Positions 1,806 to 29,577 of a stretch of DNA of 64,000 nt are shown here, one piece after another (position 1 is the first letter of the stretch; each line of letters begins with the position of its first letter). The stretch is from an uncultured beta proteobacterium (lineage in GTDB: Bacteria; Pseudomonadota; Gammaproteobacteria; Burkholderiales; Burkholderiaceae). Position numbers and translations under genes: made by a program. The stretch is taken from positions 25,207-89,206 of the forward strand of contig CAIKFU010000097.1 of NCBI GenBank assembly GCA_903826775.1, in the 5' to 3' direction. The notes beneath the pieces were generated by a model. The model had not been told where the DNA came from and made no database searches. It saw only the letters and a list, made by a program, of their open reading frames with translations.

Positions 1806-2174
1806 ATGAAGCAAACTCAAAGAATCGTACGTGCAGCCTTATCCACCGTAGTTATCGGAACTGCATCCTTGGTATTTGCCAATTTTGCCCAAGCGGCAGT
1901 TGATGCCGATGCTGCCAAAGCCCTGGCAAAACAAAATAATTGCTTTAAATGCCACGCTATCGATAAGGACAAAGATGGTCCTTCCTATCATGGCATTGCA
2001 GAGAAATACAAAGGCAAGGCAAATGCCGAAGCCAAGTTGATTAACCACATCACCTCTGGCGAGAAAGCCAAATTTCCTGATGGACACGAGGAAGAACACA
2101 AAATTGTGAAAACTTCCCCACCAAAAGACATGGATCAAATCAAAAATCTGATTGATTGGATCTTGGCTCAGTAA
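1806..2174 (+). CDS. mtoD: Periplasmic monoheme class I cytochrome c (MtoD-like)
   Basis: Small soluble electron carrier of 122 residues. A signal peptide ends at about residue 30 (AQA). A single heme site CFKCH lies at residues 46-50 and the distal ligand is probably Met109 in PPKDMDQ, as in class I cytochromes of the c551/c552 type. It is first in an operon followed by a decaheme cytochrome, a barrel porin and a CymA-like protein. In iron-oxidising betaproteobacteria the monoheme cytochrome next to mtoA is called mtoD, and the gene symbol rests on this context rather than sequence alone. Its likely job is to carry electrons between the decaheme conduit and periplasmic or inner-membrane partners. 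A strong AGGGAG site precedes the ATG. Confidence 0.72.
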   Translation: MKQTQRIVRAALSTVVIGTASLVFANFAQAAVDADAAKALAKQNNCFKCHAIDKDKDGPSYHGIAEKYKGKANAEAKLINHITSGEKAKFPDGHEEEHKIVKTSPPKDMDQIKNLIDWILAQ

Positions 2175-2226
2175 TTATTCAGTAAAAAAGTAAATAAACG
2201 CGAAATCGTTGGGACGAGGAAAGCAA

Positions 2227-3204
2227 ATGAAAATCTTCAAAAAACTACTAGTTATCAGTGCGGTATTGGGTGCCATGGGTATGGCACCCGTTGCCTTTGC
2301 TCAGGCCAATTTGCCTGATCTTGGGCAGTCAAAAGCCGATATTGCAAAAAACGCGTTTAAAGAAGACGCCGTTTGCACCAAGTGCCACGATGAAAGCGAG
2401 AACGCCCCCGTTCTCTCGATCTACCAAACCAAGCATGGCGTAAAAGGGGATGCCCGTACGCCAACGTGTACGTCTTGCCACGGCCAAAGCACTTCCCACT
2501 TGGGTGGTGATAAAGGCAAAGGTCGCCCAGCCCCGGATTTTGTATTCAAGAAGGGTGTTTACGACAAGAGTGCCAGTGCCGATCGTATGGATAAGTGCCA
2601 AACCTGCCATAAAGGGGCTGCACGGACGAACTGGAACGGATCGCAGCATCAGGTTAATGATGTGGCCTGTAACGATTGCCACGTAGTGCATAACCCGGTT
2701 GATAAGGTTCGTGTCAAAAAGACGCAAACCCAAGTTTGCTATACCTGCCACAAGGAACAGCGCGCAGACAGCTACAAGACTTCGACCCACCCCATTGAAG
2801 TTGGTAAGGTCGTTTGTTCCGATTGCCACAATCCGCATGGTTCAACTGGCCCAGTTATGCTTAAGAAGAATACGTTGAATGAAACCTGCTTCTTGTGCCA
2901 TGCTGAAAAACGTGGACCCATGTTATTTGAACACCAACCTGTTGTGGAGAGTTGCGCCAATTGCCACACCCCACATGGTTCTAACATTACCCCGTTGCTA
3001 AAGGATCGCCCACCATATTTGTGCCAGGATTGCCATGACGGTATGAGTCATCCAAGAGCTCCGTTTGGTCCCGCTGCAGCTGGCCGACAAGTGACTCCAG
3101 GCGTTGCAAGTCCAAGTCCAAATGCGACAGGTAGGGCTTGCTTGAACTGCCACACCATGGTCCATGGATCCAATAGCCCAGCTGGCGGATATTTACAACG
3201 CTAA
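2227..3204 (+). CDS. mtoA: Decaheme c-type cytochrome of the MtrA/MtoA/PioA/DmsE family
   Basis: Periplasmic electron conduit expected to sit inside the barrel encoded next door. I count ten CxxCH sites: CTKCH, CTSCH, CQTCH, CNDCH, CYTCH, CSDCH, CFLCH, CANCH, CQDCH and CLNCH. The length, 325 residues, matches MtrA-type decahemes. A signal peptide ends at AFA-Q. I chose the ATG at 2227 because GAGGA lies about seven bases upstream and the signal peptide then starts properly; an in-frame TTG at 2209 would add six residues. There is no porin-length N-terminal extension of the PioA type. The family works in both directions (metal reduction or Fe(II) oxidation), so the direction here is inferred from gene order only. 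Confidence 0.85.
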   Translation: MKIFKKLLVISAVLGAMGMAPVAFAQANLPDLGQSKADIAKNAFKEDAVCTKCHDESENAPVLSIYQTKHGVKGDARTPTCTSCHGQSTSHLGGDKGKGRPAPDFVFKKGVYDKSASADRMDKCQTCHKGAARTNWNGSQHQVNDVACNDCHVVHNPVDKVRVKKTQTQVCYTCHKEQRADSYKTSTHPIEVGKVVCSDCHNPHGSTGPVMLKKNTLNETCFLCHAEKRGPMLFEHQPVVESCANCHTPHGSNITPLLKDRPPYLCQDCHDGMSHPRAPFGPAAAGRQVTPGVASPSPNATGRACLNCHTMVHGSNSPAGGYLQR

Positions 3205-3236
3205 TGAACATAGATAGATACTGATAGAGGCCCGTT

Positions 3237-5684
3237 ATGAGAAACGAACGTAAATTTAATTTAAGGGTAAGTGCCATTTCACTCGCTGTCGCTAGTATGT
3301 TCATGGCCAGCGCTGCAATGGCGGATCAAGAAGAGGCTAAGGCGCTAACGCAACCGAAGAGCTCGGTGGTGGTGGAGGCTATTAGTGTCGATCAGTCCTC
3401 GGCAAAATTTGGGGAATACAACGGACTGAATCGCTCAGGCGGTTACGTGAACGGTGGGTTTGTCGTTAGACAGGGCGGTGCCTACAGTAACAATGAACAA
3501 GGCGATACATCGCGTTGGAGTGTATACGGCGATAACTTGGGCTTAACAACACGTTCTGCAGGGGCAGGTTACAGCGATCAAGGAAGCTGGAATTTAAACC
3601 TGAATTACGACGAACTGCAGCACAACATCTCCAATAGCTATCAAACCCCCTATCAGGGAACGATGGGTGGCAACTCGTTTAGCTTGCCCAGTAGTTTTGG
3701 GATTGTGAATACATCACAGACTAATGGTGGAACCGCTGCCTCAGCTACGACAGCCAATCCAACAGTTCGAACTGGTGCACAGAATTTGACCGCTACCCAG
3801 TTGAACTCTTTTGGCAACATGAATATATCGTCTACGCGCAACAACACGACTTTAAGTGGTGGTGCTGTTATCGATAATAATTCCGGGATCACGTTTGAAT
3901 ACAACAATCTGATTCAAACGGGCGCCAAATTGCAAGCCGTGCCAGGAGCTGGTTTGGGAGCAAAAGGTGTTGCAGTGGGCGAATCGCCAACGATTCTGCC
4001 AATGCCAACCAATTTCCAGACCGACACCTTTAATGTGGCTTATAACTGGAAATCGGAAGCGGCGCACTTTACAGCATCGTATTTTGGATCCTATTTTCAG
4101 GATAACAACAACAGCATTAATTTCCAACCCTGGGCAGCCAGCGTAGGGGTAACCGGCTCGGCAAACAACATGGCTATGCAGCAAATCAGCACTGCCCCAA
4201 GCAATCTGCTGAACCAACTCAATATTGGCGGCGGTTACGACTTTACGAGTAAAACCAAGTTGACGGGTAATGCTTCAGTGAGTAGAAATACCCAAAACGC
4301 CTCCTTTGCCTACGATCCGTACATGATGATTTCCCCAAGTGCTGGCGGTCTTCCCATGAGCAATGGCTCCATGAACGGTTTGGTCAATACTACCCATATT
4401 GATGCCAAGGTAACCGATCAATCGGTAAAGAATTTGACGTTGACTGCCGCCTACAGATTTGATGAGCGCGACAACTTGAGCCAATCGAACGTCTATTCAT
4501 TTAGCAGCGTGGGAAGTGCAGGCACGACGGCAACAAACGTGCATCCCGCCTTCTATCCTAATGCACCGCTAAGCTATAAACAACAACAGATTTTGCTCGG
4601 CGGCGATTACAAGCTTACTCGTGATCAGAAAGTTAGCTTGAATTACGTGAATAACGCGATGCAAAGGTGGTGTAGTCAGTATGGCGTATCTGGTACGAAT
4701 TCATTAAGTGCGAACCAATTCCCAGGGGGTACGAATTGTGTTGTGGCAACCAATAATAATGAAAATAAATTGGATGCCTTGTATAAGATTAAGGCCACCG
4801 AAGGCTTGAACTTTAAGGCCGGACTTGGTTATGCCAAACGCAATGCAACCTTGGATCCTAATGCGGTGACCAGTTATGCAACTGCGAATCCGAACATCAA
4901 TCCAGCGAATAAAACCCTTGTTCCAGGTTTAAATGGGCAGGACTATTACGGTTTTGTGCCTTTCTTTGAAGCGGCACGCAACCAATTTGTCGCCAAAGGA
5001 ACGGCCAATTGGGACGTAAACGAGAAACTGTCTTTCGCTTTGGGCGGTAAATATACCAGCGACCAATACCCAAATTCCACATACGGAATGCAAAATGGCA
5101 ATTCGTGGAGTTTGAATTTGGACGGCACCTATGCCTATAGCGAATCCGGGTCGTTGACAGCCTTTGCTACTCAGCAAAATATGCAGCGGAACTTGTCCAA
5201 CTTTTCTGGAAATCAAAGCACAACGGCGTTTAACACTTCACCCGGTTCTGGCACTTGGACGAATAATTTGACCTCCAACGCTACGACGTTTGGTGTGGGG
5301 GTTAAACAGGGTGATTTGATGGGTGGAAAAGTCACCTTGTTCGGAGACCTGCTTTATTCCATGGCCAGCACTTGGTATGCAACGAACGTGAATTACGTAC
5401 CTAGTGCCACTACGCTTTGCAATTCCCCTAACGTCATGACTTGCGGAATTTTGCCTGCGATTCAAAACAATATGGGAGCAATCAAGTTGGGTGGAAACTA
5501 CCAGATTGACAAGAATCAGAGGGTAGGCCTGATGTATTGGTACCAACATTTGTATACCAACGATTATTACTACAATGGCCTGCAATATCCTAATAGCCCA
5601 ACAGCCACATTGCCGACCAATCAAAGTAATCCTGGCTACAGCGTCAATGTGTTCTCCGTCAACTACACGTACACGTTTAATTGA
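3237..5684 (+). CDS. mtoB: MtrB/PioB/MtoB-family decaheme-associated outer membrane beta-barrel
   Basis: Outer-membrane porin of 815 residues thought to sheath the decaheme cytochrome. The signal peptide ends near AMA at residue 29. The rest is typical barrel sequence: alternating strands rich in Asn, Ser, Gly, Thr and aromatic residues, few cysteines, and a C terminus ending in a strand (NYTYTFN). It lacks an obvious N-terminal CxxC pair of the kind described for some MtrB proteins; the cysteines seen are scattered in mid and C-terminal loops. It starts 32 bases after mtoA with a GAGG site, so the two form one operon. A large N-terminal stretch of low-complexity Asn/Thr/Gly loops (about residues 130-200) may face outward. 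Confidence 0.82.
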   Translation: MRNERKFNLRVSAISLAVASMFMASAAMADQEEAKALTQPKSSVVVEAISVDQSSAKFGEYNGLNRSGGYVNGGFVVRQGGAYSNNEQGDTSRWSVYGDNLGLTTRSAGAGYSDQGSWNLNLNYDELQHNISNSYQTPYQGTMGGNSFSLPSSFGIVNTSQTNGGTAASATTANPTVRTGAQNLTATQLNSFGNMNISSTRNNTTLSGGAVIDNNSGITFEYNNLIQTGAKLQAVPGAGLGAKGVAVGESPTILPMPTNFQTDTFNVAYNWKSEAAHFTASYFGSYFQDNNNSINFQPWAASVGVTGSANNMAMQQISTAPSNLLNQLNIGGGYDFTSKTKLTGNASVSRNTQNASFAYDPYMMISPSAGGLPMSNGSMNGLVNTTHIDAKVTDQSVKNLTLTAAYRFDERDNLSQSNVYSFSSVGSAGTTATNVHPAFYPNAPLSYKQQQILLGGDYKLTRDQKVSLNYVNNAMQRWCSQYGVSGTNSLSANQFPGGTNCVVATNNNENKLDALYKIKATEGLNFKAGLGYAKRNATLDPNAVTSYATANPNINPANKTLVPGLNGQDYYGFVPFFEAARNQFVAKGTANWDVNEKLSFALGGKYTSDQYPNSTYGMQNGNSWSLNLDGTYAYSESGSLTAFATQQNMQRNLSNFSGNQSTTAFNTSPGSGTWTNNLTSNATTFGVGVKQGDLMGGKVTLFGDLLYSMASTWYATNVNYVPSATTLCNSPNVMTCGILPAIQNNMGAIKLGGNYQIDKNQRVGLMYWYQHLYTNDYYYNGLQYPNSPTATLPTNQSNPGYSVNVFSVNYTYTFN

Positions 5685-5721
5685 TGAGTTTAAATGGTCT
5701 TATTACTAGAAAGCGATAGCA

Positions 5722-6318
5722 ATGGAAAATAAACAACCGGGGGCATTGAAGCGTTTTTGGGCTTTTGTCAAAAAGCCCAGCGCCAAATATTCCATCCTAG
5801 CGATATTTTCCGTTTCCTTTATTGGAGGCATCCTGTTTTGGGGGGCCTTTAATACCGGCTTGGAAATGACGAACACCTTGGAGTTTTGCGTAACGTGTCA
5901 TGAAATGCGCGACAACGTTTACCAGGAATACAAGGAAACGATTCACTATAGCAATCGCAGTGGTGTTCGCGCCGTTTGTTCCGATTGCCATGTACCAAAA
6001 GACTGGGTCCATAAGATGATCCGCAAGTCGAAGGCCAGCATGGAGGTTTGGGGGAAATTGACGGGTTCAATTGATACCAAAGAGAAATTTGAGGCTAAGC
6101 GCATGGAGTTGGCTGGTCACGAGTGGCAGCGCATGAAAGACAATAACTCGCGTGAATGCCGCAATTGCCACAATTTTGATGCGATGAGTCCTGAATTGCA
6201 GAAACAGACGCCCTACAAGAAGCATATGAAGGCGAAAGAAGACGGTAAAACCTGTATTGATTGCCACAAGGGAATTGCGCACCAATTGCCGAAAGAGTAC
6301 GAAGAGTCGGACGATTAA
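5722..6318 (+). CDS. cymA: NapC/NirT/CymA-family tetraheme quinone-linked cytochrome c
   Basis: Inner-membrane anchored cytochrome of 198 residues that exchanges electrons between the quinone pool and periplasmic cytochromes. One membrane helix lies at about residues 22-45, followed by a periplasmic domain with four heme sites: CVTCH (followed by EM, as in NapC/NrfH), CSDCH, CRNCH and CIDCH. Last gene of the mto operon, 37 bases after the barrel gene and followed directly by a strong hairpin. In CymA-type respiration it oxidises quinol. In an Fe(II)-oxidising setting it is thought to run in reverse and reduce quinone (ImoA in some literature). The sequence cannot decide which. Confidence 0.83.
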   Translation: MENKQPGALKRFWAFVKKPSAKYSILAIFSVSFIGGILFWGAFNTGLEMTNTLEFCVTCHEMRDNVYQEYKETIHYSNRSGVRAVCSDCHVPKDWVHKMIRKSKASMEVWGKLTGSIDTKEKFEAKRMELAGHEWQRMKDNNSRECRNCHNFDAMSPELQKQTPYKKHMKAKEDGKTCIDCHKGIAHQLPKEYEESDD

Positions 6319-6386: not shown

Positions 6387-7040
6387 ATGACAGCCAATAT
6401 CCCTTCTTTCCTTAAGCCCACAGACAAGACTTTCATGCTTAGCGCTCGGGGGTTGAGTTGCGTTCGGGGTGAGCGTACGCTTTTTACTGGGCTTGATTTG
6501 GAAATTCGCCAAGGTGAATGGTTGCATGTCCGTGGTGAGAATGGAGTCGGTAAAACCAGCCTTCTTAGATTGCTTACCGGACTCACAAAACCCGCTGCAG
6601 GAGACATTTTCTGGTGTAACCAATCCATTCGCTCCAATAGCGAAGGTTATCGCAAGAACCTCCTCTTTTTGGGTCACCGAGATTCGGTTAAGGAGGATTT
6701 GACCGCGTTGGAAAATTTGGAAATTGCCGCAGCGTTGGACGGTTCCCGGTTATCTGCAGAAGAGGGGTTGCCGGCTTTATATCGCTTTGGCTTAAAGGGC
6801 AGGGAGGATTTGCCAGTCAGCTGCTTATCGGCAGGCCAAAAAAGACGGGTATTGCTAGCAAGACTGGTAACGCGTAAAGCCAAATTGTGGATCTTGGACG
6901 AGCCCTTTAACGCATTGGACGTAAAAGCGGTTCAAATGCTATCGGATTTGATGAGCAGCCATGTTCAGGATGGCGGCATGGTCATCATGACCAGTCATCA
7001 GGAAATTCCCATGCTCAATGGTAGGGTGGTTCAACTGTGA
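6387..7040 (+). CDS. ccmA: Cytochrome c maturation ABC transporter ATP-binding protein CcmA
   Basis: ATPase of the CcmABCD complex, which releases heme-loaded CcmE for cytochrome c assembly. Walker A GENGVGKTS, signature LSAGQKRRVLLA and Walker B LWILDEP are all present. The first ATG (6387) lies only seven bases after the hairpin. An in-frame ATG at 6435 starts MLSARGLSC, which aligns better with the usual CcmA N terminus, so either 217 or 201 residues. Neither has a clear ribosome site. First of nine ccm genes in the standard order; the operon supplies heme attachment for the 15 c-type hemes encoded just upstream and for the cbb3 oxidase. Confidence 0.95.
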   Translation: MTANIPSFLKPTDKTFMLSARGLSCVRGERTLFTGLDLEIRQGEWLHVRGENGVGKTSLLRLLTGLTKPAAGDIFWCNQSIRSNSEGYRKNLLFLGHRDSVKEDLTALENLEIAAALDGSRLSAEEGLPALYRFGLKGREDLPVSCLSAGQKRRVLLARLVTRKAKLWILDEPFNALDVKAVQMLSDLMSSHVQDGGMVIMTSHQEIPMLNGRVVQL

Positions 7041-7702
7041 GCGCATTGCTAGCCGTTATCCATCGCGATTTGTTGTTGGTGTTTCGTCGCAAAAGCGAGG
7101 TATTGACGGCTTTATTTTTTTTCGTAATCGTAACGAGCCTATTTCCGCTTGGTATTGGTGCGGACACGGTCTTATTGCGTAAAATTGCCCCTGGGGTGAT
7201 TTGGGTGGCGGCGTTGTTATCGACCATGCTCGGTTTGCAGCGCATGTTTACGACCGACTATGCGGATGGCACTCTTGAGCAGATGGCTTTATCCCCAACA
7301 CCATTGGTGGTTTTGGTGGGGGGTAAAATTGCGGCACACTGGCTCGTATCCGGATTTCCTCTGGTTTTACTGGCACCGGTGATGGGGATTCAATTTGATC
7401 TTGATGCAGGCACTTTGGGAGTCTTTATGTTGGCGTTACTAATTGGCACGCCAATTCTGTCATTGGTCGGCGCAATTGGAGCAGCACTGACGCTTGGGGT
7501 TCGAGGCGGTGGCGTTCTATTAAGCTTGTTGGTATTGCCGTTGTATGTGCCCGTTTTGATTTTCGGTGCAGGTGCCGTCTATGCCAATAGCGTTGGATTG
7601 GATGTGGGAGGGCATTTTTCTTTATTGGCCGCATTGTTGGTTTTGGCAGTGTTTTTTGCTCCTTGGGCAACAACGGCCGCCGTCAGGATTGCAATCGAAT
7701 GA
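7037..7702 (+). CDS. ccmB: Heme exporter membrane protein CcmB
   Basis: Membrane subunit of the CcmABCD complex, 221 residues with about six hydrophobic helices and almost no soluble part. It starts with GTG in a four-base overlap with the ccmA stop, indicating translational coupling. The start of ccmC overlaps its stop in turn. Length and position between ccmA and ccmC are typical. The sequence lacks catalytic residues; identity rests on hydrophobicity, an N-terminal region rich in Arg and Phe (LLVFRRKSEVL) and gene order. Confidence 0.93.
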   Translation: MSALLAVIHRDLLLVFRRKSEVLTALFFFVIVTSLFPLGIGADTVLLRKIAPGVIWVAALLSTMLGLQRMFTTDYADGTLEQMALSPTPLVVLVGGKIAAHWLVSGFPLVLLAPVMGIQFDLDAGTLGVFMLALLIGTPILSLVGAIGAALTLGVRGGGVLLSLLVLPLYVPVLIFGAGAVYANSVGLDVGGHFSLLAALLVLAVFFAPWATTAAVRIAIE

Positions 7703-8472
7703 GTGATGCAGCAAATAATTTCGCAAACAATCAAGTTGTTCATTGGTTTAGATTTTCTAGTCCTTCAACTTTTTATCCACTTGCCGGAAAACTGATTCCC
7801 ATTTTTTGGGCGCTATCAATTCTGTTTGGGTTGGCGGGACTATGGATCAGTTTTTTTGTGGCTCCGGTTGATGCGGTTCAAGGTGAAGGCTATCGAATCA
7901 TCTTTGTGCACGTGCCCGCTTCTTGGATGTCGATGTTTATTTATATTGTGATGGCGATGTGGGCAGGATTGGGTCTGGTGTTTAATACCAGGTTGTCCGC
8001 AATGATGGCCCAAGCATTGGCCCCTACCGGTGCGTTAATGGCTTTCCTGTCTCTGTGGACGGGTGCCTTTTGGGGTAAGCCGATGTGGGGGGCATGGTGG
8101 GTTTGGGATGCGCGCTTAACCTCCGAATTAATTTTGCTGTTTTTGTATCTGGGGTTTATCGCATTGCAAGCGTCCATAGACGATCCGCGTCGCGCCGATA
8201 AGGCGGGAGCAATATTGGCTTTGGTTGGCGTAGTTAATGTGCCGATTATTTATTTCTCCGTAAAGTGGTGGAACACATTGCATCAAGGGGCATCGGTTTC
8301 AATCAACAAAGCTCCTGCCATGGCGCATACCATGCTGTGGGGCATGTTGTTGGTGGCGCTTTGCTTTTGGATGTATGCGATTGCCATTGCGCTCATGCGA
8401 GTGCGAGCCATCATCTTGGAACGCGAATCGCATACGGATTGGGTAAGGCAGCTTGACGAGGTAAAACAATAA
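7699..8472 (+). CDS. ccmC: Heme handling protein CcmC
   Basis: Inner-membrane protein that loads heme onto CcmE. The tryptophan-rich WWD motif is clear (WGAWWVWDARLTSELIL), with the flanking heme-ligand histidines in FVHVPASW and WNTLHQG. About six membrane helices. The frame is open from 7663, but the ATG at 7699 overlaps the ccmB stop as ATGA and gives the usual length of 257 residues, so I prefer it. Confidence 0.95.
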   Translation: MSDAANNFANNQVVHWFRFSSPSTFYPLAGKLIPIFWALSILFGLAGLWISFFVAPVDAVQGEGYRIIFVHVPASWMSMFIYIVMAMWAGLGLVFNTRLSAMMAQALAPTGALMAFLSLWTGAFWGKPMWGAWWVWDARLTSELILLFLYLGFIALQASIDDPRRADKAGAILALVGVVNVPIIYFSVKWWNTLHQGASVSINKAPAMAHTMLWGMLLVALCFWMYAIAIALMRVRAIILERESHTDWVRQLDEVKQ

Positions 8473-8660
8473 TGTGGAATTCACCCGCAGCGTTTTTCGC
8501 CATGGGCGGTTATGGGCTCTACGTGTGGAGCAGTTTTGGAGTATGCGCATTGGTATTTATTTTTGAACCGATGCAGATTCGAAAGCGCCACAAGTTGATT
8601 GTGATGCGGTTAAAACGCGAGATTCGTGCTGAAAAATTTGACAAAGAGGAATTGAATTGA
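8472..8660 (+). CDS. ccmD: Heme exporter accessory protein CcmD
   Basis: Small membrane protein of 62 residues with one hydrophobic helix (about residues 8-32) followed by a very basic cytoplasmic tail (RKRHK and RLKRE), the usual CcmD layout. It helps release holo-CcmE from CcmABC. Its ATG shares one base with the ccmC stop codon and its stop overlaps the ccmE start, so it is tightly embedded in the operon. Confidence 0.9.
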
Positions 8661-9091
8661 AGCCTAGACATAAACGTGCCCTAATCATTATCGGGGCCTT
8701 GGCCGCAATTGGGATTGCCGCTCTATTCATTCTGAATGCCCTTAATAGCAATATTGCGTTGTATGTCACCCCTAGCGAGGTTGCAAGTGGAAAATCGCCT
8801 AAAGGCCAAGCGTTTCGTATTGGGGGACTGGTTAAAGACGGCTCTTTAAAGCGAGACGAGTTGGTTGTTCATTTTGTGATTACGGATTTGGTAAAAGACA
8901 TACCGGTGTCGTACAAGGGGATTCTTCCCGACTTGTTTAAAGAGGGGAAGGGCGCAGTAGTGCAAGGACGTCTTGAGCCCGATGGGCAATTCGTTGCCAG
9001 CGAGGTGCTGGCAAAGCACGATGAAAATTACATGCCGCCCGAGGCCAAGCAAGCTCTTGAGCAGGCTCAGAAAAATGGAGCGAAGCCATGA
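8657..9091 (+). CDS. ccmE: Periplasmic heme chaperone CcmE
   Basis: Binds heme covalently through a histidine and hands it to CcmF/CcmH. The diagnostic motif [12 protein letters not shown] near the C terminus carries the attachment His and the conserved Tyr. An N-terminal membrane anchor precedes a beta-barrel OB-fold domain. The start is TTG at 8657, overlapping the ccmD stop (TTGA); no ATG is available before the anchor. 144 residues, normal for the family. Confidence 0.96.
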
Positions 9092-10998
9092 TTCCAGAAT
9101 TTGGTCATATAGCGCTGATTCTGGCGCTGTGCGTTTCCATTGTGCAAGGCGTTTTGCCGTTGCTTGGCGCGCATCTAGGGCGCCGCGAATGGCTCATATT
9201 GGCGAGACCGGCAGCGCAAGTTTCTTTCCTGTTGCTGAGTATTTCATTCGCCGTGTTGGCATGGAGTTTTTATACCAATGACTTTTCAGTCTTGTATGTT
9301 GCCGAACATTCCAATGCTCAGCTGCCCGTTGTATACCGAATCGGTGCGGTTTGGGGTGGGCATGAAGGGTCGTTGCTGCTGTGGATCTTTTTGTTGACGG
9401 GGTGGGCGTTTGCGGTTGCTCAACTTTCAAAAACACTGGATGAATTTATGGTGGCACGGGTTGTTGGTGTGTTAGGGTTGGTGGCGACTGGACTGCTGTT
9501 GTTTGTTCTGGCGACATCAAACCCCTTTGAGCGATTATTTCCTGCTGCGCAAGATGGTCGATCGCTCAATCCGTTATTGCAAGATCCAGGATTGGTTTTT
9601 CATCCACCCATGCTGTATATGGGCTACGTAGGATTTTCTGTTGCCTTTGCCTTTGCCATTGCATCGCTGTTGTCCGGAAAATTGGATGCCGCTTGGGCGC
9701 GGTGGTCGCGCCCTTGGACAACGACGGCATGGATTTTCCTGACTCTTGGAATTGCATTGGGTTCTTGGTGGGCATACTATGAATTGGGTTGGGGTGGCTG
9801 GTGGTTTTGGGATCCGGTTGAAAATGCGTCGTTTATGCCGTGGTTGATCGGCACCGCGTTGTTGCATTCGTTGGCCGTGACGGAAAAGCGCGGGGGTTTT
9901 AAAAATTGGACGGTGTTGTTGGCAATCATTGCGTTTTCAATGTCGCTCCTGGGAACTTTCCTGGTACGTTCCGGCGTACTCACCTCAGTGCATGCTTTTG
10001 CAACGGATCCTCGTCGCGGCATTTTCATTCTGATACTCCTGTCTTTGGTGGTTGGCTCCTCTTTATTTCTATACGCTTTGCGCGCTCCCAAAAGTGCATT
10101 GGGGGGCGCGTTTTCATTGATGTCGCGCGAGACATTGATATTGCTAGGGAACGTGTTTTTAGTGGTCGCGGCCGGTTCGGTTCTTTTGGGAACCATTTAT
10201 CCGTTGCTAATCGATGCCCTAAATTTAGGAAAGATTTCGGTCGGCCCCCCATACTTCAATAGCGTTTTTGTGCCGATCATGGTTCCGGTGCTGTGTTTGT
10301 TGGCTATTGGCCCCTGGGCGAATTGGAAGTCGACAAATCTGCAAACTTTGGTAAAGCACCTCTGGATCGCTGCGGTAGTAGCGTTTGTTGCAGCGATTTT
10401 AATTCCCAGAATCATGGGCGATTTTTCATTGCTGATTTCTTTGGGTTTCCTATTGTCGTTTTGGATTATTACCTCGAGTGTTTTGCAAATCATTCGTCAG
10501 GCAAAGTCAGGAAAACCCACTCGATCATTTATTGGTATGCAGTTTGGTCATATCGGCATGGCCGTTTTTGTGATTGGGGTGACCATGGTTGGGGGATATC
10601 AGGAGGAAAAAGACGTTCGCATGGCACCTGGTGATACCGTGAATGTTGGCGGATACCAGATTAAATTAATGAATGTTCGGCTTGCACCAGGACCAAACTA
10701 TGAGGCGATGCGCGGTGCCTTTGAATTGAGCCGGCATGGAAATCTCGAGACAATTTTGTATCCAGAAAAACGCAACTATTTTTCTTCAACAATGCCGATG
10801 ACTGAAGCCGCAATCGATGCGGGATTTACCCGGGATGTTTACGTATCGCTTGGAGAGCCGTTGGAGGGGAATGCTTGGGCTGTACGCGTTTACTACAAAC
10901 CGTTTGTCGATTGGATTTGGGGCGGTTGCCTCTTGATGGCTCTTGGGGGGTTATTCGCTGTTTTCGATAAGCGGTATCGCTTGAGACTTAAAAAATAA
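9088..10998 (+). CDS. ccmF: Cytochrome c heme lyase subunit CcmF
   Basis: Large polytopic membrane protein (636 residues, many helices) that, with CcmH, ligates heme to apocytochromes. The WWD motif is at [18 protein letters not shown], followed by the conserved [19 protein letters not shown]. The region [12 protein letters not shown] supplies another conserved His, and a soluble loop lies near the C terminus. The ATG overlaps the ccmE stop (ATGA). Length and motif order match CcmF/NrfE; the context says CcmF. Confidence 0.97.
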
Positions 10999-11023
10999 TT
11001 TGCTAAAGAAGAATTGAATTGAA

Positions 11024-11554
11024 ATGAAAGCAAAATTTATCATTCCGTTGTTGCTGTTTGTGGTGCTTGTGGGATTTTTGGCGGTCGGTCTAAATCGAGA
11101 TCCTCGAGAAGTGCCTTCCCCGCTGATTAATAAGCTTGCCCCGGCGTTTAATGTTCCTCAGCTTGCCGATCAAGGCAAGTCGTTTTCTCCAGAAAGCATG
11201 AAGGGGCAAGTTTGGATTTTAAATGTCTGGGCTTCTTGGTGCGTGGCTTGCCGCGAAGAGCATCCGGTTTTGGTGGAATTGGGTAGATCGCAAATTGCCC
11301 CATTGATCGGGCTCGATTACAAGGACCGCCGAGAGGATGCAATGATGATGTTGGCAAGACAGGGAAATCCATACGTTTTGTCGGCATTTGACGGGGACGG
11401 TCGCGTGGGAATTAATTATGGAGTTTATGGCGTTCCAGAAACCTATGTCATGGATAAGGCCGGAGTAATCCGCTTTAAGCAAATAGGCCCGATAACAACT
11501 GACGTGTTGGAAAAAACCATCTACCCACTGATCAATGAATTGAAAAAGAGCTAA
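11024..11554 (+). CDS. ccmG: Membrane-anchored periplasmic thioredoxin CcmG/DsbE
   Basis: Thiol reductase that keeps the apocytochrome CxxCH cysteines reduced. An N-terminal anchor (about residues 5-24) precedes a thioredoxin fold with active site WASWCVACREEHPV and the cis-proline segment GVPETYVMD. The CVAC dipeptide (Val-Ala) is a variant within the range seen in CcmG proteins. 176 residues, standard. Starts 25 bases after ccmF. Confidence 0.95.
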   Translation: MKAKFIIPLLLFVVLVGFLAVGLNRDPREVPSPLINKLAPAFNVPQLADQGKSFSPESMKGQVWILNVWASWCVACREEHPVLVELGRSQIAPLIGLDYKDRREDAMMMLARQGNPYVLSAFDGDGRVGINYGVYGVPETYVMDKAGVIRFKQIGPITTDVLEKTIYPLINELKKS

Positions 11555-11560
11555 GAAATC

Positions 11561-12025
11561 GTGAAACGCATACTAACCTGTCTTCTCTTTTTATTGTTTT
11601 CAAATATTTTGCTTGCGAATGAAGCCGTTCCATTGGCCGAGGATCCGGTGCTTGAGCAACGCTTGATTACCATTTCGGAAGAGATGCGCTGCTTGGTTTG
11701 CCAAAACGAGTCGTTGGCTGGATCACGCTCCGATTTGGCGCAAGATCTGCGCAGGGAAATTCGAGGCTTAATCAAAGAGGGTAAATCGGATGCTGAGATC
11801 AGGACGTTCATGGTCGAGCGCTATGGGGATTTTGTTTTATACCGTCCACCAGTTAAGCCGATTACGTGGCTACTTTGGCTTGGGCCTTTTGCTTTAATGA
11901 TTGCGGGTATTGCGGCATTGCTGGTTTATTTGCGTAAACGGAATAGTCAAATTACCGGCAATTTGTTGTCCGAAGAAGAAAACAAGCGCATTGATGCGCT
12001 ATTGCGGGATAGTGCAAATGATTAA
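11561..12025 (+). CDS. ccmH: Cytochrome c maturation protein CcmH (short form)
   Basis: Membrane-anchored oxidoreductase of the heme lyase complex. GTG start, signal peptide (ending near LLANEA), then the redox motif MRCLVCQNESLAGS, and a C-terminal membrane helix followed by a charged tail. 154 residues, the length of the CcmH form lacking the TPR domain, which is here encoded separately as ccmI. The stop overlaps the ccmI start. Confidence 0.95.
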   Translation: MKRILTCLLFLLFSNILLANEAVPLAEDPVLEQRLITISEEMRCLVCQNESLAGSRSDLAQDLRREIRGLIKEGKSDAEIRTFMVERYGDFVLYRPPVKPITWLLWLGPFALMIAGIAALLVYLRKRNSQITGNLLSEEENKRIDALLRDSAND

Positions 12026-13226
12026 TTTTTTAATTGCCTCAGTTGTATTGTTGGTGTTGGTTTTGGTTTTACTCTTTCGCCCTTTCTATTGGAGGTCAAA
12101 AGTTCAGCACGCTTCCCGTCGCCAATTGAATGCGGTGATCTATAAGGAGGAGCTTGAAAAGCTCGAGAAAGATCGCGCAAGTGGGGCGTTGGATGCGACC
12201 AGTTATGAGCAGGGGCACGCTGAAATGCGTCAACGTTTATTTCAGGATACGGATGAGGCCGACGGCGTATCCGTCTCGAGTTCGCCTATCAAGACCATGA
12301 TTGCAGTGAGCTTGTTCATTTCAATTGCTACCATTGGGGTGTATCTGTGGATCGGCAATGCGGATGAGGCTGTCAATGGCAGCGCACACCAAAAAATAGC
12401 CGAGCAAGATGTTGAAAAAATGGTTGCCGGACTGGCAGCAAAAATGGAGCAAGACCCAACGAACCTGAAGGGTTGGGCAATGCTGGCAAGATCCTATAAA
12501 GTGATGGGAAGGCCTTTGGAGGCCGAGAAGGCCTATGACCGGGCAGGGCCCTATATTGATGGCGATGCGCAGTTGTTGGCGGATTACGCCGATGTGGCCG
12601 CTAGCAATGCAAACGGCAGTTTTGTGGGCAAACCGCAGCAGTTGATCAATAAGGCATTAAAGGTCGACCCCAACAACATGATGGCGCTTTGGTTGGCCGG
12701 TACGGCCGCCTTTAATAACGGCGACTACAAGTCGGCCGTACGGATTTGGGAAAAATTGGAGGGGTTGCTTCCCCCCGATTCCGAGGATACTCGGACCATT
12801 CAAAGCTCAGTGTTGGAAGCGCAGCAAAAGGGGAATTTGCCGATTCGCAAAAACCCCTCCCCTCAACCAACAACTCCTTTGGTAAATGGAAGCGTTAGTG
12901 GGTTGGTTGAAATCGACCCATCGCTGAAATCCAAAGTGAATCCCGATGACGTCATTATGGTGATTGCTCGGGCCCCAGGAGCTCGAATGCCCTTGGCAAT
13001 CATGAGGGCGCGTGCCGCCGATCTGCCGGTCCGATTTGTATTAAATGATGCCTTAGCCATGACGCCAGATGCCTTGATTTCGACCTTAGCCGAGGTAACG
13101 GTCGAAGTACGGATTTCCAAATCCGGAATGGCTAAACCGGAGCCGGGTGATTTGTTGTCTGCAACGCAAAATGTTAAGGTTGGTGCAACCGGGATTAAGC
13201 TCTTGGTAAATCAGGTTCGCCCATAA
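12018..13226 (+). CDS. ccmI: Cytochrome c biogenesis protein CcmI with TPR domain
   Basis: Apocytochrome c chaperone. The start at 12018 (MINFLIASVV) overlaps the ccmH stop and yields two N-terminal membrane helices flanking a short charged cytoplasmic loop, then a periplasmic TPR region (about residues 130-260 with NLKGWAMLARSYKVMGRPLEAEKAYDRA-type repeats), then a Pro-rich linker and a C-terminal beta domain of the kind seen in CycH/CcmI. 402 residues. The frame is open further upstream (from 11901) but that part lies within ccmH. Last gene of the ccm operon; no strong terminator follows immediately. Confidence 0.92.
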   Translation: MINFLIASVVLLVLVLVLLFRPFYWRSKVQHASRRQLNAVIYKEELEKLEKDRASGALDATSYEQGHAEMRQRLFQDTDEADGVSVSSSPIKTMIAVSLFISIATIGVYLWIGNADEAVNGSAHQKIAEQDVEKMVAGLAAKMEQDPTNLKGWAMLARSYKVMGRPLEAEKAYDRAGPYIDGDAQLLADYADVAASNANGSFVGKPQQLINKALKVDPNNMMALWLAGTAAFNNGDYKSAVRIWEKLEGLLPPDSEDTRTIQSSVLEAQQKGNLPIRKNPSPQPTTPLVNGSVSGLVEIDPSLKSKVNPDDVIMVIARAPGARMPLAIMRARAADLPVRFVLNDALAMTPDALISTLAEVTVEVRISKSGMAKPEPGDLLSATQNVKVGATGIKLLVNQVRP

Positions 13227-13500: not shown

Positions 13501-16500
13501 ATGTCAATTCAAGCAATTAGTATCGATGTCCTGATTGAGAAATACGCTAAGGATGGTGAGCGTGATCCGGATGTGATTTTTCAGCGAGTGGCTAAGGGAT
13601 TAGCCGTCGTTGAAAACGACGCGATACGAAATGATGTAGAGAAGATGTTTTTAGAGAACATGCGTAACGGCGCTATTGGTGCTGGGCGAATCATGAGTGC
13701 GGCAGGGACTGGCATCAAAGCGACATTAATTAATTGTTTTGTTCAGCCGGTTGGGGATTGCATTCAGGGTTTTGATGCCGACGGGTTCCCGGGAATTTAT
13801 GAGGCTTTAAAGCAGGCCGCTGAGACGATGCGGCGTGGCGGTGGCGTTGGATACGACTTCTCAAGAATTCGTCCTAAAGGCGCTGAGGTTAAAGGTACCG
13901 CTTCAATTGCGTCCGGTCCTTGCAGTTACATTAATGTATTTGACCAGTCCTGCTCTACTGTTGAGAGTGCCGGATCTAGGCGCGGCGCGCAAATGGGCGT
14001 TCTCAAGATTGATCACCCCGATATCTTTGATTTCATAACGGCCAAACGGGTCACTGGTCGTTGGAATAATTTCAACGTGTCGGTCGGGGTATCAAGTGCC
14101 TTTATGAAGGCCGTGGAGACTGATCAAACCTGGGATTTGGTTCATAAGGCAAAACCGTGCAAGGATCTGCTTGAACAAGGGGCGCATCAAAGAACAGATG
14201 GATTATGGGTTTATCGCAGTGTTAGCGCCAGAGAAATTTGGGATGCTGTGATGCGGTCTGCTTATGATTTTGCCGAGCCCGGTATTTTATTTCTCGATAA
14301 CATCAATCGGGATAACAACCTCAATTATTGCGAAGCAATTGAAGCAACCAATCCATGTGTTACTGGCGATACACGACTAGCAACGCAGTTTGGTTTGGTA
14401 AGAATTAATGATTTATTTATTACCGGCAATGAGTTGGAGGTAACTGTTGATAACCGTGCATTAGGTTTGGCGGTTGGTGGCGCTCAGGTTAGAAAGGCTG
14501 TTCCTGCGTTTTTGACTTCTCATAATGCAGAAGTTTTTGAAGTAGTGACCGCTGCTGGCTATGCAATCAAAGCAACTGCATGGCATGATTTTTATACCCC
14601 TAGGGGAAAGATTAAACTTTCAAACCTAGTGGTTGGTGATAGTCTTTATATCCAATCGGGTAAAGGCCAATTTGGTAAAGCTGGTAGCAGAGATCTGGGT
14701 TTTTTGATGGGTCTAATTACAGGAGATGGGCATTTTACAAATCGCGGAAAAGGTATTCAAGGGGCTGTAATCAGTTTATGGGGTGAAGACCAACTACTTG
14801 GCGAACGTGTGTGTGGCATTGTTCATAAATTAACGGGTGGTCAATCCAATAACCAAAGAGAATATCAAGTCGCTCCAGTAGCCGTGCCGGATAGAGACAT
14901 GACGTTTATACGCTCGACTGTATTAGCTCGAGTTTTGGATATTTATGGTTTTAATGGTGAAACCAAGTTAAGCGTTCCTAATGTGGTGTGGACGGGATCA
15001 GAGGAATGCGTAAAAGGGTATTTGCAGGGATTATTCCAAGCTGACGGAACTGTTAATGTCAGCTCAAATTCAAACAGCTGCTCAATTCGTTTGAATTCCT
15101 CATGTGAATCTTTATTAAGTGAACTTCAAATTCTCCTTTCAAATTTTGGAATTTTCAGCTCCATTCATCTCAGAAGGGAGTCGGGTTATCGGGATTTGCT
15201 AGACGGCAAAGGCGGAAGTAAACCTTATTTATGCAAAGATAATTACGAGTTAATTATTGATGGTGAATCGCGTGATCGCTTCATGTCGGAAATTGGTTTT
15301 GCGCTTCCACAAAAGGCTGATAAATACAATGTATGGGTTAAAGACAAGGCGCTAGTAAAAACCCAATCCTTTCAATCGGAAATCATCTCCATTGAACAGA
15401 TTGGTTCTGAGCCAGTTTTTGATACCACGCAAGCTGATAATAATACGGTCATTTTTAATGGGTTGGTAACCGGACAATGTGGCGAACAACCATTACCGCC
15501 TTATGGTTGCTGTGATCTCGGTCCAGTCATCTTGACGCATTTTGTGCGCAATCCATTCGGGTTTGCTGGGGAACCCAGCTTTGATTTTGAAAAATTTATT
15601 TCAGTAGTGAAAATTCAAGTACGTATGCTTGATAACGTCTTGGATGCCACATTTTGGCCTTTGCCGGAACAGGCCGAGGAAGCCAGAATTAAAAGGCGTA
15701 TCGGTGTTGGTTTTACCGGATTAGGCGATGCCTTAGTGATGTTAAAACTTCCTTATAACGAGGAAGGGGCCAGGGTGGTTGCTGCGAAGATCGCTAGGGT
15801 AATGCGCGATGCAGCCTATGAGGCCTCGGTTGAATTGGCCAAAGAAAAAGGATCTTTCCCGTCTCTCGACGTTGAAAAGTATTTGAGTGGGGACAGTTTT
15901 GTTACCCGCTTGGATGAGGACTTAAAAAATAAGATCCGGCAGTTTGGTATTCGCAATAGCCATTTGCTTTCGATTGCGCCAACGGGAACGGTTAGCCTTG
16001 CGTTTGCTGACAACGCTTCTAATGGCATCGAACCCGCTTTCTCATGGGTGTATCGTCGCAAGAAGCGTGAAGCCGACGGCACTACCTCGGAGTATGCGGT
16101 TGAAGACCATGCATGGCGTTTATACCGGGAACTTGGAGGGGACGTAGAGAACCTGCCAAACTATTTTGTGTCAGCCCTGCAAATGGCTGCAACCGATCAC
16201 ATTGCCATGATGGAGGCGGTGCAACCCTTTATCGATACCGCTATTTCGAAAACGGTCAATGTTCCAGTTGAGTACCCATATGAAGATTTCAAGAGTTTGT
16301 ATTTGCAGGCATGGCGTGCAAACTTGAAGGGATTGGCAACCTACCGCCCCAATAGTATTTTAGGGGCGGTACTTGAAACCGGGCCAAGCGCGTCTGAGGC
16401 TGCTGTAGCGAGTGAAGTTGGGTTCGACCCAATGCGAACGGTTGTGGAGAGTCGTCCAAAGGGTATTTTGCCTGCAGTTGCCGAAAAAATTGAATATTGG

Positions 16501-17019
16501 ACGCAAGAAGGCCACAAAACTTTATATTTAGTGGTTTCGTTTATCACCCTTCCCAATGGCGGTGGATCCGGAACGGTGGAGAGGGCAATTGAATTCTTCA
16601 TGCCCGTTGGTCAAAATGGTGAATCCCAGCAGTGGATTACTTCCAGTATGCGGCTGCTTTCATTGGCTGCGCGTGGAGGATTTTTAGAACGTGCTCTTGG
16701 GGATATGCGGAAGGTGGCCTGGGATCGCGGTGCGGTTCGATTGGGTACCTTTGAAAAAATCGATGGTACTCGCATGCCTTTATGGCACGATTCGGAAGTT
16801 GCGGCAATTGCCTATGCCATTCAAAATATTATTGAGCGGCGCAATGGCAATTCGCTAAATGATCTATCTGAAATGTCAGCTCGCGAAGAATCTCGCTCTA
16901 CATCTGCCCCACCGGTGATGGTGGGTAAGAAGTGTGCAGAGTGCGGCGCGCATGCCGTCATTCGCAAGGATGGTTGCGACTATTGCACGCAATGCGGGCA
17001 TTTGGGAACTTGCGGGTAA
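13501..17019 (+). CDS. nrdJ: Adenosylcobalamin-dependent ribonucleotide reductase NrdJ, intein-containing precursor
   Basis: Class II reductase that makes deoxyribonucleotides with a B12-derived radical, so it works with or without oxygen. The precursor has 1172 residues; removing the intein (residues 286-659) leaves 798. The N-extein carries the glycine-rich [11 protein letters not shown] and RRGAQMGVL segments. The C-extein starts [15 protein letters not shown], so splicing restores NPCGEQ, whose Cys is the thiyl-radical residue and whose Asn and Glu are its partners. A TSCPD-like domain and a C-terminal cysteine cluster ([19 protein letters not shown]) that recycles the active-site disulfide follow. 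No partner nrdB is nearby, as expected for class II. FNR box upstream. Confidence 0.95.
14356..15477 (+). mobile_element. LAGLIDADG intein inserted in nrdJ before the radical cysteine
   Basis: In-frame protein intron of 374 residues (precursor 286-659). It begins with Cys286 in [10 protein letters not shown] (block A), has TAWH with Thr359 and His362 (block B), two LAGLIDADG helices, [12 protein letters not shown] (Asp409) and [12 protein letters not shown] (Asp515), and ends VFDTT..NGLVTGQ before Cys660 (blocks F and G). The terminal residue is Gln rather than Asn and the penultimate is Gly rather than His, a variant known among reductase inteins. Both endonuclease aspartates are intact, so homing activity is plausible. 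Two 60-base lines I counted early in the intein (14401, 15061) are 33-35% GC and one is 43%, against 50-53% in two extein lines, consistent with transfer. Confidence 0.93.
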
Positions 17020-17028
17020 TCTAAAAGC

Positions 17029-17790
17029 TTATCCGCGTCCTACGAAGGGCATTTTTGTGGCCATGATGGTCATGGACAGAATATTGCTTTCAAGCGGAAG
17101 TTGTGCCATTTGGAGTACTGCAGCGCCGACGTGATCGACATCCATGCGCGGCTCAACTTGGATTGAGCCGTCGGCTTGGATGATTCCCTTTGACATGCGC
17201 TCCGTCATTTCGGTAGCGGCGTTGCCAATATCGATTTGACCGCAAGCAATATTAAATGGACGCCCATCTAGCGCAATGGATTTTGTTAGGCCGCTAATGG
17301 CGTGTTTAGTCGATGTATACGGAGCGGACATCGGGCGTGGGGCGTATGCAGAGATTGACCCATTGTTAATGATGCGACCCCCTTGCGGGTTTTGCGCCTT
17401 CATCATCCGCATGGCTTCTTGGCTGCATAAGAAGGCTCCGCATAGGTTGGTGTTGACAACGGCCATCCACTGTTCATAGCTGAGATCTTCCATGGGGATG
17501 GCTGGCGTACCCATTCCCGCATTGTTAAATAAAACATCGATGCGGCCAAACGCACTTTTCAGGGTTGCGAACAGTGTTTTGACGTCGTTGGGTTTGCCCA
17601 CATCGCATTGGATTGCTAAGCTGTTTTCGCTTGAGCCGCCAATGTCCCTAATGGCATTTTCCAGTTTCCCCAACGTTCGTCCCACAAGGGCTACGCGGTA
17701 GCCTCCATGAAGAAGTGCTTTGGCTGCTGCTTTACCAATACCGGTTCCGGCGCCGGTAACCAGTGCAACACGTTGTGGGGTAATAATCAT
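17029..17790 (-). CDS. Short-chain dehydrogenase/reductase (classical SDR)
   Basis: NAD(P)-dependent oxidoreductase of 253 residues. Cofactor motif [12 protein letters not shown] at the N terminus, NNAGMGTPA in the middle, catalytic Ser in [11 protein letters not shown] and [11 protein letters not shown] (Tyr-x3-Lys). The substrate cannot be told; the C terminus with [17 protein letters not shown] is common in Burkholderiales SDRs of unknown role. It converges on nrdJ with a nine-base gap and no terminator, and is divergent from the TAXI gene. Confidence 0.88.
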
Positions 17791-27272: not shown

Positions 27273-28712
27273 ATGGGAATTGCCGTGGGGGGTAACCAAG
27301 ATACCTTCAATTACAAGGTTGTTCGCCAGTTTGCGCTGGTGACAGTTCTTTGGGGCATTGTCGGTATGCTTGTCGGGGTAATTCTGGCGGCGCAGTTGAT
27401 TTGGCCAGAAATTACGTTCAATATTCCGTGGTTAAGCTATGGTCGTTTGCGCCCATTGCATACCAATGCAGTGATCTTTGCGTTCGGGGGCTGTGCTCTA
27501 TTTGCAACCTCGTACTACATTGTTCAACGCACCTGTCAGGTCCGCTTGTTTTGCGATAAGTTGGCCGCGTTTACCTTTTGGGGTTGGCAAGCCGTCATCG
27601 TTGCCGCAGCGGTCACGCTACCTTTGGGAATTACCACTTCCAAGGAATACGCCGAGTTGGAGTGGCCGATCGATATTTTGATCACAGTGGTTTGGGTTGC
27701 CTACGCAGTGGTGTTCTTTGGAACACTCATTAAGCGCAAAACAAAGCACATTTACGTATCCAATTGGTTTTTTGGCGCATTCATCCTCACGATTGCCATT
27801 TTGCATTTGGTAAATAATGTGGAAATGCCTGCTAGTTTGTGGAAGTCGTATTCCGCTTACGCTGGCACCCAAGATGCGATGATCCAGTGGTGGTATGGCC
27901 ACAATGCGGTTGGATTCTTTTTAACCACCAGCTTTTTGGGCATGATGTACTACTTCATACCCAAACAAGCGGAGCGTCCGATTTATTCATATCGCCTTTC
28001 CATCGTCCACTTTTGGGCATTGAACTTTACGTATATGTGGGCAGGCCCTCACCATTTGCAGCATACGGCATTGCCCGATTGGACCCAGTCTTTGGGAATG
28101 GTGTTTTCCTTGATTTTGTTAGCTCCATCTTGGGGTGGCATGATCAACGGCATCATGACCTTATCAGGCGCATGGCACAAACTGCGTCGTGATCCAATCC
28201 TCAAATTCCTCGTGGTCGCGCTATCGTTCTACGGCATGTCGACGTTCGAAGGTTCCATGATGTCGATCAAAACGGTGAATAGCCTGTCCCATTACACGGA
28301 TTGGACTATTGGTCACGTGCATTCCGGTGCTTTAGGTTGGGTTGCCATGATTTCGATTGGATCTTTGTATTACATGATTCCGCGTTTGGTTGGGCAAAAG
28401 GATATGTACAGCACCAAATTGATTGAGCTGCATTTTTGGATCGCAACAATCGGGGTGGTGGTTTATATTGCCGCCATGTGGATTGCCGGCGTGATGCAAG
28501 GTCTAATGTGGAGGGCATTCGAGGCTGACGGCACCCTTACCTACAGCTTTGTGGAATCGGTAAAGGCAACGTACCCCTTCTATGTAATTCGTTTGTTGGG
28601 CGGTTTATGTTTTCTGAGCGGCATGCTTTTGATGGCTTTTAATGTCTTCAAAACCGTGATTGATAAACCCTTCGTTGACGCTCCGATTCCAGCGTTACCA
28701 GCTGCTCATTAA
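27273..28712 (+). CDS. ccoN: cbb3-type cytochrome c oxidase subunit I
   Basis: Catalytic heme-copper subunit that reduces oxygen with high affinity. 479 residues, about twelve helices. Conserved His sites: [14 protein letters not shown] (low-spin heme), [11 protein letters not shown] and [13 protein letters not shown] (CuB and cross-linked Tyr region), [11 protein letters not shown] (heme ligands). It lacks subunit I features of aa3 oxidases. First gene of the ccoNOQP operon, downstream of an FNR box. Confidence 0.98.
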
Positions 28713-28722
28713 GGAGGCGAGA

Positions 28723-29385: not shown

Positions 29386-29409
29386 TTAATTAGAAACAAC
29401 AGAAATCTT

Positions 29410-29577
29410 ATGGAAAATATAGCGCCATACCTATCTGCCATATCCACAGTGATTGGGCTGGTATTTTTTTTGGGGATTGTTTGGTGGGCGTGGTCTGCGA
29501 AACGGCAGCCTGCCAATCAAGAATCTGCTGAACTTCCGTTCGATCTTCCTGATGAATTTAGCAAGGACAAATCATGA
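29410..29577 (+). CDS. ccoQ: cbb3 oxidase small subunit CcoQ/FixQ
   Basis: Single-helix protein of 55 residues (helix about residues 8-28: LSAISTVIGLVFFLGIVWW) with a polar tail ending FSKDKS. It stabilises the oxidase complex. Its stop overlaps the ccoP start (ATGA). Position between ccoO and ccoP identifies it. Confidence 0.93.
   Translation: MENIAPYLSAISTVIGLVFFLGIVWWAWSAKRQPANQESAELPFDLPDEFSKDKS

Follow-up and report, generated by a model that had tools for sequence, protein, structure and literature searches.

An Mto-type porin-cytochrome operon in Polynucleobacter with an adjoining two-component system and a predicted operator

The locus and its electron-carrier genes

The mtoD-mtoA-mtoB-cymA operon described here lies in a 64,000-nucleotide stretch of contig CAIKFU010000097.1, the window, from the assembly of an uncultured beta proteobacterium (G000); the loci and genomes used for comparison carry L and G numbers, and statements from the literature are drawn from parts of the papers cited. 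The operon itself is of a kind already known, in a genus already known to have it. It is part of a larger block, kinase-regulator-mtoDAB-cymA-ccm, which is new here; the kinase-regulator pair, placed directly upstream of mtoD, was absent from the original prediction made on this DNA. The block contains the following features.

1-1010, + strand: sensor histidine kinase, 3' part (PAS, HisKA_3 and HATPase domains, and a dCache-like domain just below cut-off)
1007-1651, + strand: NarL/LuxR-type response regulator, overlapping the kinase stop (Response_reg and GerE above cut-off)
1671-1686, no strand: perfect 16-bp palindrome ATAGGAATATTCCTAT, putative operator for the response regulator
1708-1713, + strand: possible -10 element TATATC, read from the sequence
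1806-2174, + strand: mtoD, monoheme cytochrome of 122 residues, one CXXCH (Pfam Cytochrom_C above cut-off)
2227-3204, + strand: mtoA, decaheme cytochrome of 325 residues from ATG, ten CXXCH (TIGR03508, 275 bits against a cut-off of 192)
3237-5684, + strand: mtoB, outer-membrane barrel of 815 residues, about 26 strands predicted (TIGR03509, 376 against 240; PF11854, 318 against 23)
5722-6318, + strand: cymA/imoA-like tetraheme cytochrome of the NapC/NirT type, 198 residues, four CXXCH (PF03264, 254 against 24)
6387-13226, + strand: ccmABC-E-FGHI, cytochrome c maturation (System I), with ccmA directly after cymA

The four genes originally proposed, coding for a monoheme, a ten-heme cytochrome, an 815-residue barrel and a tetraheme NapC-type protein, are all present on the + strand with their families above cut-off. 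The locus holds the components by which an Mto cluster is recognized, namely a ten-CXXCH decaheme of the MtrA family, an adjoining barrel of the MtrB/PioB family, MtoD and a NapC-type tetraheme.

The top match of MtoD in the PDB is 4xxl_A (153 bits, the runner-up chain reaching 71). This structure, 4XXL, is the MtoD of Sideroxydans ES-1, with an unusual bis-His ligation and a potential of +155 mV (PMC4412085). In the alignment of 17 MtoD rows, His50 (of CXXCH) and His98 are invariant, and Met109, the sole inner methionine of the window protein, is present in 5 of the rows. This pattern of a conserved second histidine instead of a methionine ligand is that of an MtoD-type protein, with His98 as the putative second ligand. 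The start of mtoA is an ATG preceded by a GAGGA motif. The MtoA protein matches Shewanella baltica MtrA (6r2q_A, E 2e-64), a chain labelled 'Cystathionine beta-synthase' in the PDB sequence file, apparently a label error, and it scores 35.2 bits on PF22113 (MtrC/MtrF domain II/IV; cut-off 30).

A PDB sequence search gave no match for MtoB. Its AlphaFold2 monomer model, built from 31 sequences (mean predicted local distance difference test score 68.9, predicted template modelling score 0.61), finds 6r2q_B as the best structural match (E 1.5e-35, template modelling score 0.82 by target), the next one being at 2e-9. The model contains 27 strands of at least 8 residues, of which 26 are taken as barrel strands, a count chosen by the analyst with strand 250-257 left out; the published number for PioB, MtoB and MtrB is 26 (PMC10654088). 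Insertions and deletions among MtoB relatives are almost exclusively located in long loops. The assembly contains one MtrB match, and the genome codes for a second NapC-type protein (L002, G000:C15), 78% identical to the CymA of the window. This second gene lies near a molybdopterin oxidoreductase gene on the opposite strand.

The kinase-regulator pair and the predicted operator

The kinase gene is complete in L096 (L096:8935-11010, 691 residues), which places its start some 1.0-1.1 kb upstream of the window. Of the 26 mto loci with a regulator match directly upstream, all of which form the regulator-linked set, 23 have a kinase homologue immediately before the regulator, and in the remaining three the contig begins within the regulator gene. 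The regulators of P. finlandensis and P. sp. Latsch14-2 share 87-88% identity with that of the window.

The palindrome sits in the 154-bp gap between the regulator gene and mtoD, and reads as a dedicated operator of the response regulator, predicted from sequence. If TATATC is the -10 element, the centre of the palindrome would fall near -41.5, a classic activator position, and a similar ATA element stands at roughly this spacing in other families. The core TAGGANNNTTCCTA, with at most one mismatch, occurs in 23 of the 26 regulator-linked loci, a count not fully independent since the motif was read from the same loci, and in none of the 28 scanned mtoD loci without the regulator (Fisher p 2e-12, uncorrected for relatedness of the loci); the scan of regulator-less loci covered those other than L005, L010, L023, L034, L039, L064, L074, L078 and the wider-context stretches. 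When two mismatches are allowed the figure rises to 24 of 26. Outside the Polynucleobacter-type loci the flanks of the core are just 16-37% identical to those of the window, and the positive loci include the Azonexaceae locus L080 and the related L077, with flanks 20-22% identical, about chance. In G000 the core occurs at one place alone, the 1671-1686 site. The exact TAGGAATATTCCTA is confined to four of 150 genomes (G000, G034, G043 and G112), lying before mtoD in G000 and G034 and elsewhere in G043 and G112, the last of which has two MtrB genes, neither near the site. G034 has in addition a second, imperfect palindrome site.

Several points tell against this assignment. That the regulator binds the palindrome is a prediction, the core has three mismatches in the regulator-linked loci L028 and L032 and two in L042, and loose TAGGANNNTTCCTA occurs somewhere in 67 of the 150 genomes, so the core is not rare. 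Alternatively, the palindrome might be bound by another factor or have a structural role, and accompany the block by chance. We regard this as unlikely, since palindrome and regulator co-occur across families whose flanks are unalike and the exact form is so restricted, standing before mtoD in both G000 and G034. A similar palindrome, TAGGAAATTTCCTA, is found near 145 kb in several genomes of the same genus that have no MtrB match (for example G076:C1:144787, G012:C1:144554 and G065:C1:147667), possibly the site of another regulator. A search of the open-licence literature, subscription papers not being covered, found no report of a dedicated mto regulator or operator; the regulator in one paper that mentions MtoA together with a response regulator has to do with lactate.

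Extent of the block and insertion site

The whole block from kinase to ccm is also present in P. finlandensis (L016), in P. sp. Latsch14-2 (L020) and in L022. Five loci whose titles name Comamonadaceae, Limnohabitans or Comamonas have it as well (L028, L029, L036, L043 and L047). The ccm operon of the window holds the sole CcmF match of the assembly; the ccm gene search covered the genes other than the small ccmD. The operon had been described as lying next to ccm and cbb3 oxidase genes, which is right for ccm and loose for cbb3, located at 27273-30497, 21 kb downstream. Two further genes follow ccm in the window.

13501-17019, + strand: nrdJ, adenosylcobalamin-dependent ribonucleotide reductase with an in-frame LAGLIDADG intein; a syntenic neighbour outside the electron path
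17029-17790, - strand: short-chain dehydrogenase, 83% identical to the neighbour of ccmI in the mto-less loci L112 and L117

An nrdJ gene follows mto-ccm in other loci too, in L016, L020 and L022 with further open reading frames intervening, and directly in L028 and L029. It was rejected as a marker of the block: TIGR02504 matches other reductases too (149 of 150 genomes), and matches of class-II strength are found in mto-less genomes as well.

In the mto-less locus L117 (G011, no MtrB match) the order is b561, two YceI genes, an ATP-grasp ligase, ccmA to ccmI and the short-chain dehydrogenase, the b561 and YceI genes being named by eye and the homologues of ligase and dehydrogenase recognized by a family scan. 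This ligase gene also occurs in L016 and L020, where two small genes come next, then the genes from kinase to cymA, and then ccmA; L026 has the same order up to cymA, where the stretch stops. By this comparison the mto block occupies a position just before the ccm operon of the genus, either by insertion there or by loss in L117, where the site is apparently empty. The window retains the dehydrogenase flank, with nrdJ between ccmI and the dehydrogenase, and differs in its upstream flank. Acquisition of ccm together with mto is rejected for the genus, CcmF being present in 79 of 90 other genomes; it is also contradicted by the ccm genes of the window, which are closest to Polynucleobacter-type loci, including the mto-less L117.

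Phylogenetic placement

Reference loci were typed from 33 wider stretches around MtrB matches and one Photobacterium MtrCAB locus (L133). Eight were MtrCAB-like and four DmsEFAB-like, the types being assigned from the neighbouring genes, by heme number, length and Fe-S motif, with a family scan for the L133 decaheme alone. In a quick MtoA tree of 112 rows, built after removal of rows shorter than 290 residues and of six loci that had been fetched again in a wider context, the window falls into a 12-row Polynucleobacter-type set (Shimodaira-Hasegawa-like approximate likelihood ratio test, SH-aLRT, 99) within a 76-row Mto branch (99) free of the 9 MtrCAB and 4 DmsEFAB rows; L068_3013, a mis-picked octaheme, was dropped after this tree. 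A careful tree of 51 of the 112 rows separates 12 MtrCAB/DmsEFAB from 39 Mto rows (bootstrap 100, SH-aLRT 99), and joining the Polynucleobacter-type and MtrCAB/DmsEFAB rows as one group is rejected by the approximately unbiased (AU) test (p-AU 0.013). The MtoB tree has 81 rows, with 33 loci, most of them near-copies, left aside. In it a single branch (98) unites 62 Mto rows. The window groups there with P. finlandensis, P. sp. Latsch14-2 and L022 (99), and two Comamonadaceae loci, L028 and L029, join in a wider set of 10 rows (99). The phylogeny suggested as a check on the operon thus sets MtoA and MtoB outside the sampled MtrCAB and DmsEFAB rows, among which the betaproteobacterial MtrCAB group of PMC8805035 was not purposely represented.

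The placement is weakened by three results. In a quick MtoA tree reduced to 88 of the 112 rows, the 55-row Mto branch has a support of 13. When MtoA of the window alone is forced to join MtrCAB/DmsEFAB, the AU test does not reject it (p 0.179). Finally, L176, which has MtoD and a neighbour with ten hemes, called MtrC-sized from heme count and length only, lies within the Mto branch of the MtoB tree, so that this branch does not exclude MtrC-bearing loci. Moreover, MtoA/PioA and MtoB/PioB are reported to form no function-specific clade and to group with members of MtrCAB modules (PMC8805035); hence tree placement does not prove the direction of electron flow.

Variation of MtoB and unusual loci

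Between L016 and L020 the identity of MtoB is 68%, against 91% for MtoA, 99.5% for the regulator and 98.6% for CcmF. MtoB of the window, L016, L020, L022 and L026 is fast-evolving, with insertions and deletions in long, presumably surface-exposed loops, on which exchange or phage pressure is possible. In conserved MtoB stretches, four-fold sites are raised in L016/L020 (65/104 versus 399/901, p 6e-4) and in L016/L026 (15/17 versus 174/392, p 3e-4), and no rise was found in L020/L026, L016/L022, L020/L022 and L028/L029. Fast evolution is clear; exchange of MtoB alleles, with four-fold sites raised in two of six pairs, is not borne out.

Open reading frames for octahemes with apparent membrane segments lie beside mto in L050, L054, L076, L077, L080 and L094. 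They have weak membrane matches below cut-off, b-type or formate-dehydrogenase-gamma-like, and five of the six exceed the PF22113 cut-off (36-46 bits against 30), as MtoA does; we lean towards a membrane anchor rather than an outer-surface cytochrome. In all but L050 no CymA match was found in the stretch examined, as if the octaheme were an alternative quinone anchor. L077 and L080 have the octaheme together with the regulator and the palindrome. The octaheme of the genome of the window itself (L003) is a tetratricopeptide repeat cytochrome. The metagenome-assembled genome D14_bin-1168 has four different MtoB genes on short contigs (L017, L018, L019 and L023), perhaps from several strains, and L034, from an uncultured betaproteobacterium, has two tandem MtoA-MtoB pairs beside a 5-heme open reading frame.

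Host genome and direction of electron flow

Assembly G000 (2,559,536 bases in 138 contigs, 99.9% complete) falls in the same genus as G034, taken to be Polynucleobacter finlandensis MWH-Mekk-B1, and we infer that the host is a Polynucleobacter. The genome has no match above cut-off to RuBisCO, to photosynthetic reaction centre genes, as PioABC photoferrotrophy would demand, or to MqnA. Its MenD matches, at 48-61 bits, stay far below the cut-off (244), the level to be expected from other thiamine pyrophosphate enzymes. An MtrC/OmcA search of the whole assembly with TIGR03507 gave two weak matches (best E 0.036), both within MtoA, in agreement with the original prediction that no such gene is present. 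Many binding proteins of the tripartite-tricarboxylate type, read by eye, lie between 19238 and 61075 of the window, as in organotrophs.

We consider it probable that this Mto-type operon of Polynucleobacter brings electrons inwards from extracellular Fe(II) or reduced humics, under a predicted two-component switch that acts through one operator. In the model, MtoA would be lodged inside the MtoB barrel, as MtrA is in MtrB; electrons would enter MtoA at the cell surface and pass to periplasmic carriers, MtoD may feed a c-type oxidase such as the cbb3 enzyme, and CymA would exchange electrons with ubiquinone. Because no RuBisCO was found, these electrons, delivered at least partly to oxygen, would supplement organotrophic growth, and lithoautotrophy as in Sideroxydans is not supported. 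The operon's own kinase-regulator pair is predicted to switch it on through the single operator. The MtoD of ES-1 has been suggested to feed a terminal oxidase (PMC13390432), and the organotrophic Sideroxydans CL21, in which mtoD goes up when lactate-grown cells oxidise iron while mtoA and cyc2 stay unchanged (PMC12442390), serves as a precedent for such an inward supplement.

The absence of MtrC had been read originally as a sign of Fe(II) oxidation. The absence holds, and the argument built on it is weak when taken alone, given L176 and the lack of a function-specific clade. The missing menaquinone genes favour inward flow better than the missing MtrC does, as with ubiquinone alone the driving of electrons outwards through low-potential CymA hemes would be unfavourable; ES-1 likewise has no menaquinone genes, and the study on it ascribes reduction of the quinone pool to ImoA (PMC13390432). 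On the other side, the direction is drawn from gene content, inward being the likeliest. In ES-1, MtoD binds neither MtoA nor ImoA, whereas PmcA does (PMC13390432), and no gene for a PmcA-type low-potential monoheme partner lies between cymA and ccmA, distant copies not having been searched for; this lack is not treated as decisive because PmcA has only lately entered the ES-1 model (PMC13390432). For humic lakes, He et al. (2019) proposed the reduction of humics (PMC6344600).

That last proposal belongs to an alternative in which quinol would deliver electrons through CymA to MtoD and MtoA, so that Fe(III) or humic quinones are respired in anoxic water. The MtoB fold is common to MtrB, humic substances have been proposed as electron acceptors in such lakes (PMC6344600) and, in Shewanella, ImoA can replace CymA and MtoD can take electrons from CymA and pass them to MtrA (PMC13390432). 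We nevertheless judge an outward conduit improbable, as neither menaquinone genes (MenD and MqnA searches) nor MtrC were found in the genome, ES-1 MtoD is high-potential, cbb3 oxidase and ccm are encoded nearby, and Trout Bog Polynucleobacter have 0-1 reductive against 0-3 oxidative genes for extracellular electron transfer (PMC12285243, Table 1). It is much less likely still that the operon is decayed or silent, merely a recent acquisition: an MtrB match occurs in just 2 of 90 other genomes of the genus (G034 and G052), but all reading frames are open, and the ratio of nonsynonymous to synonymous substitution rates (dN/dS) is 0.00-0.11 for the kinase, the regulator, MtoD, MtoA and CymA in pairs with measurable dS, dS being saturated between the window and most relatives. 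That the conduit serves an extracellular molybdenum reductase is scarcely credible, for the NCBIfam name of the decaheme, 'DmsE family', does not discriminate (the MtrA of Photobacterium MtrCAB scores higher on the same model, 322 bits), no DmsA/DmsB-like gene adjoins the conduit, and the DmsEFAB rows lie on the other side of the MtoA and MtoB trees.

Beyond the inward reading of this one operon, we propose, tentatively and at slightly less than even confidence, that Mto uptake is controlled by a dedicated kinase-regulator-operator unit, a switch with a single target that moves with mto among freshwater Burkholderiales and Azonexaceae. Where oxic and anoxic conditions meet, it would let organotrophs devoid of carbon fixation and menaquinone complement their oxygen respiration with electrons from Fe(II) or reduced humics. 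At stake are the use of extracellular electrons by abundant organotrophs of lakes and the direction in which such electrons flow. Up to 11.6% of the metagenome bases from the humic Trout Bog are recruited by P. finlandensis (L016), a species in culture that has this block (PMC11283720). The predicted operator offers a handle, as the signal that induces the pathway could be screened for with a reporter, and the motif helps to locate regulated mto loci in metagenomes.

Comparison with known systems

An extension of the trait to Burkholderiales had been expected from this locus; it is not new, since MtrAB/MtoAB/PioAB homologues of humic-lake Polynucleobacter, the same genus and gene families as in the window, were published in 2019 (He et al., PMC6344600). 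The main-text parts of that paper that were consulted give neither the gene order nor a regulator, an operator or an insertion site for them.

The closest likeness is to Slit_2494-2498 of Sideroxydans ES-1, with the same four families in the order mtoD-mtoA-mtoB-cymA that had been anticipated (PMC4412085, PMC13390432), an MtoD of the 4XXL type and no clustered MtrC gene. The ES-1 cluster includes a fifth gene, pmcA (Slit_2494), whereas in the window ccmA follows cymA directly; the window differs further by the kinase-regulator pair and palindrome upstream and by a host without RuBisCO. The locus of a Sideroxydans metagenome-assembled genome (L061, not ES-1 itself) has neither the palindrome nor a like pair beside mtoD. 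The MtrCAB systems of Shewanella (6r2q) and Photobacterium (L133) share the decaheme with an MtrB-type barrel; L133 has an adjacent 10-heme outer-surface cytochrome, and MtrCAB branches apart in the MtoA and MtoB trees alike. PioABC of Rhodopseudomonas palustris is, according to the literature, likewise a conduit without MtrC and has PioC in place of MtoD and CymA, a comparison made by description, with no named PioAB in the trees. DmsEFAB, finally, has a decaheme and a barrel as the window does, but its loci adjoin genes of the size and motif of Mo- and Fe-S subunits, unlike the conduit of the window.

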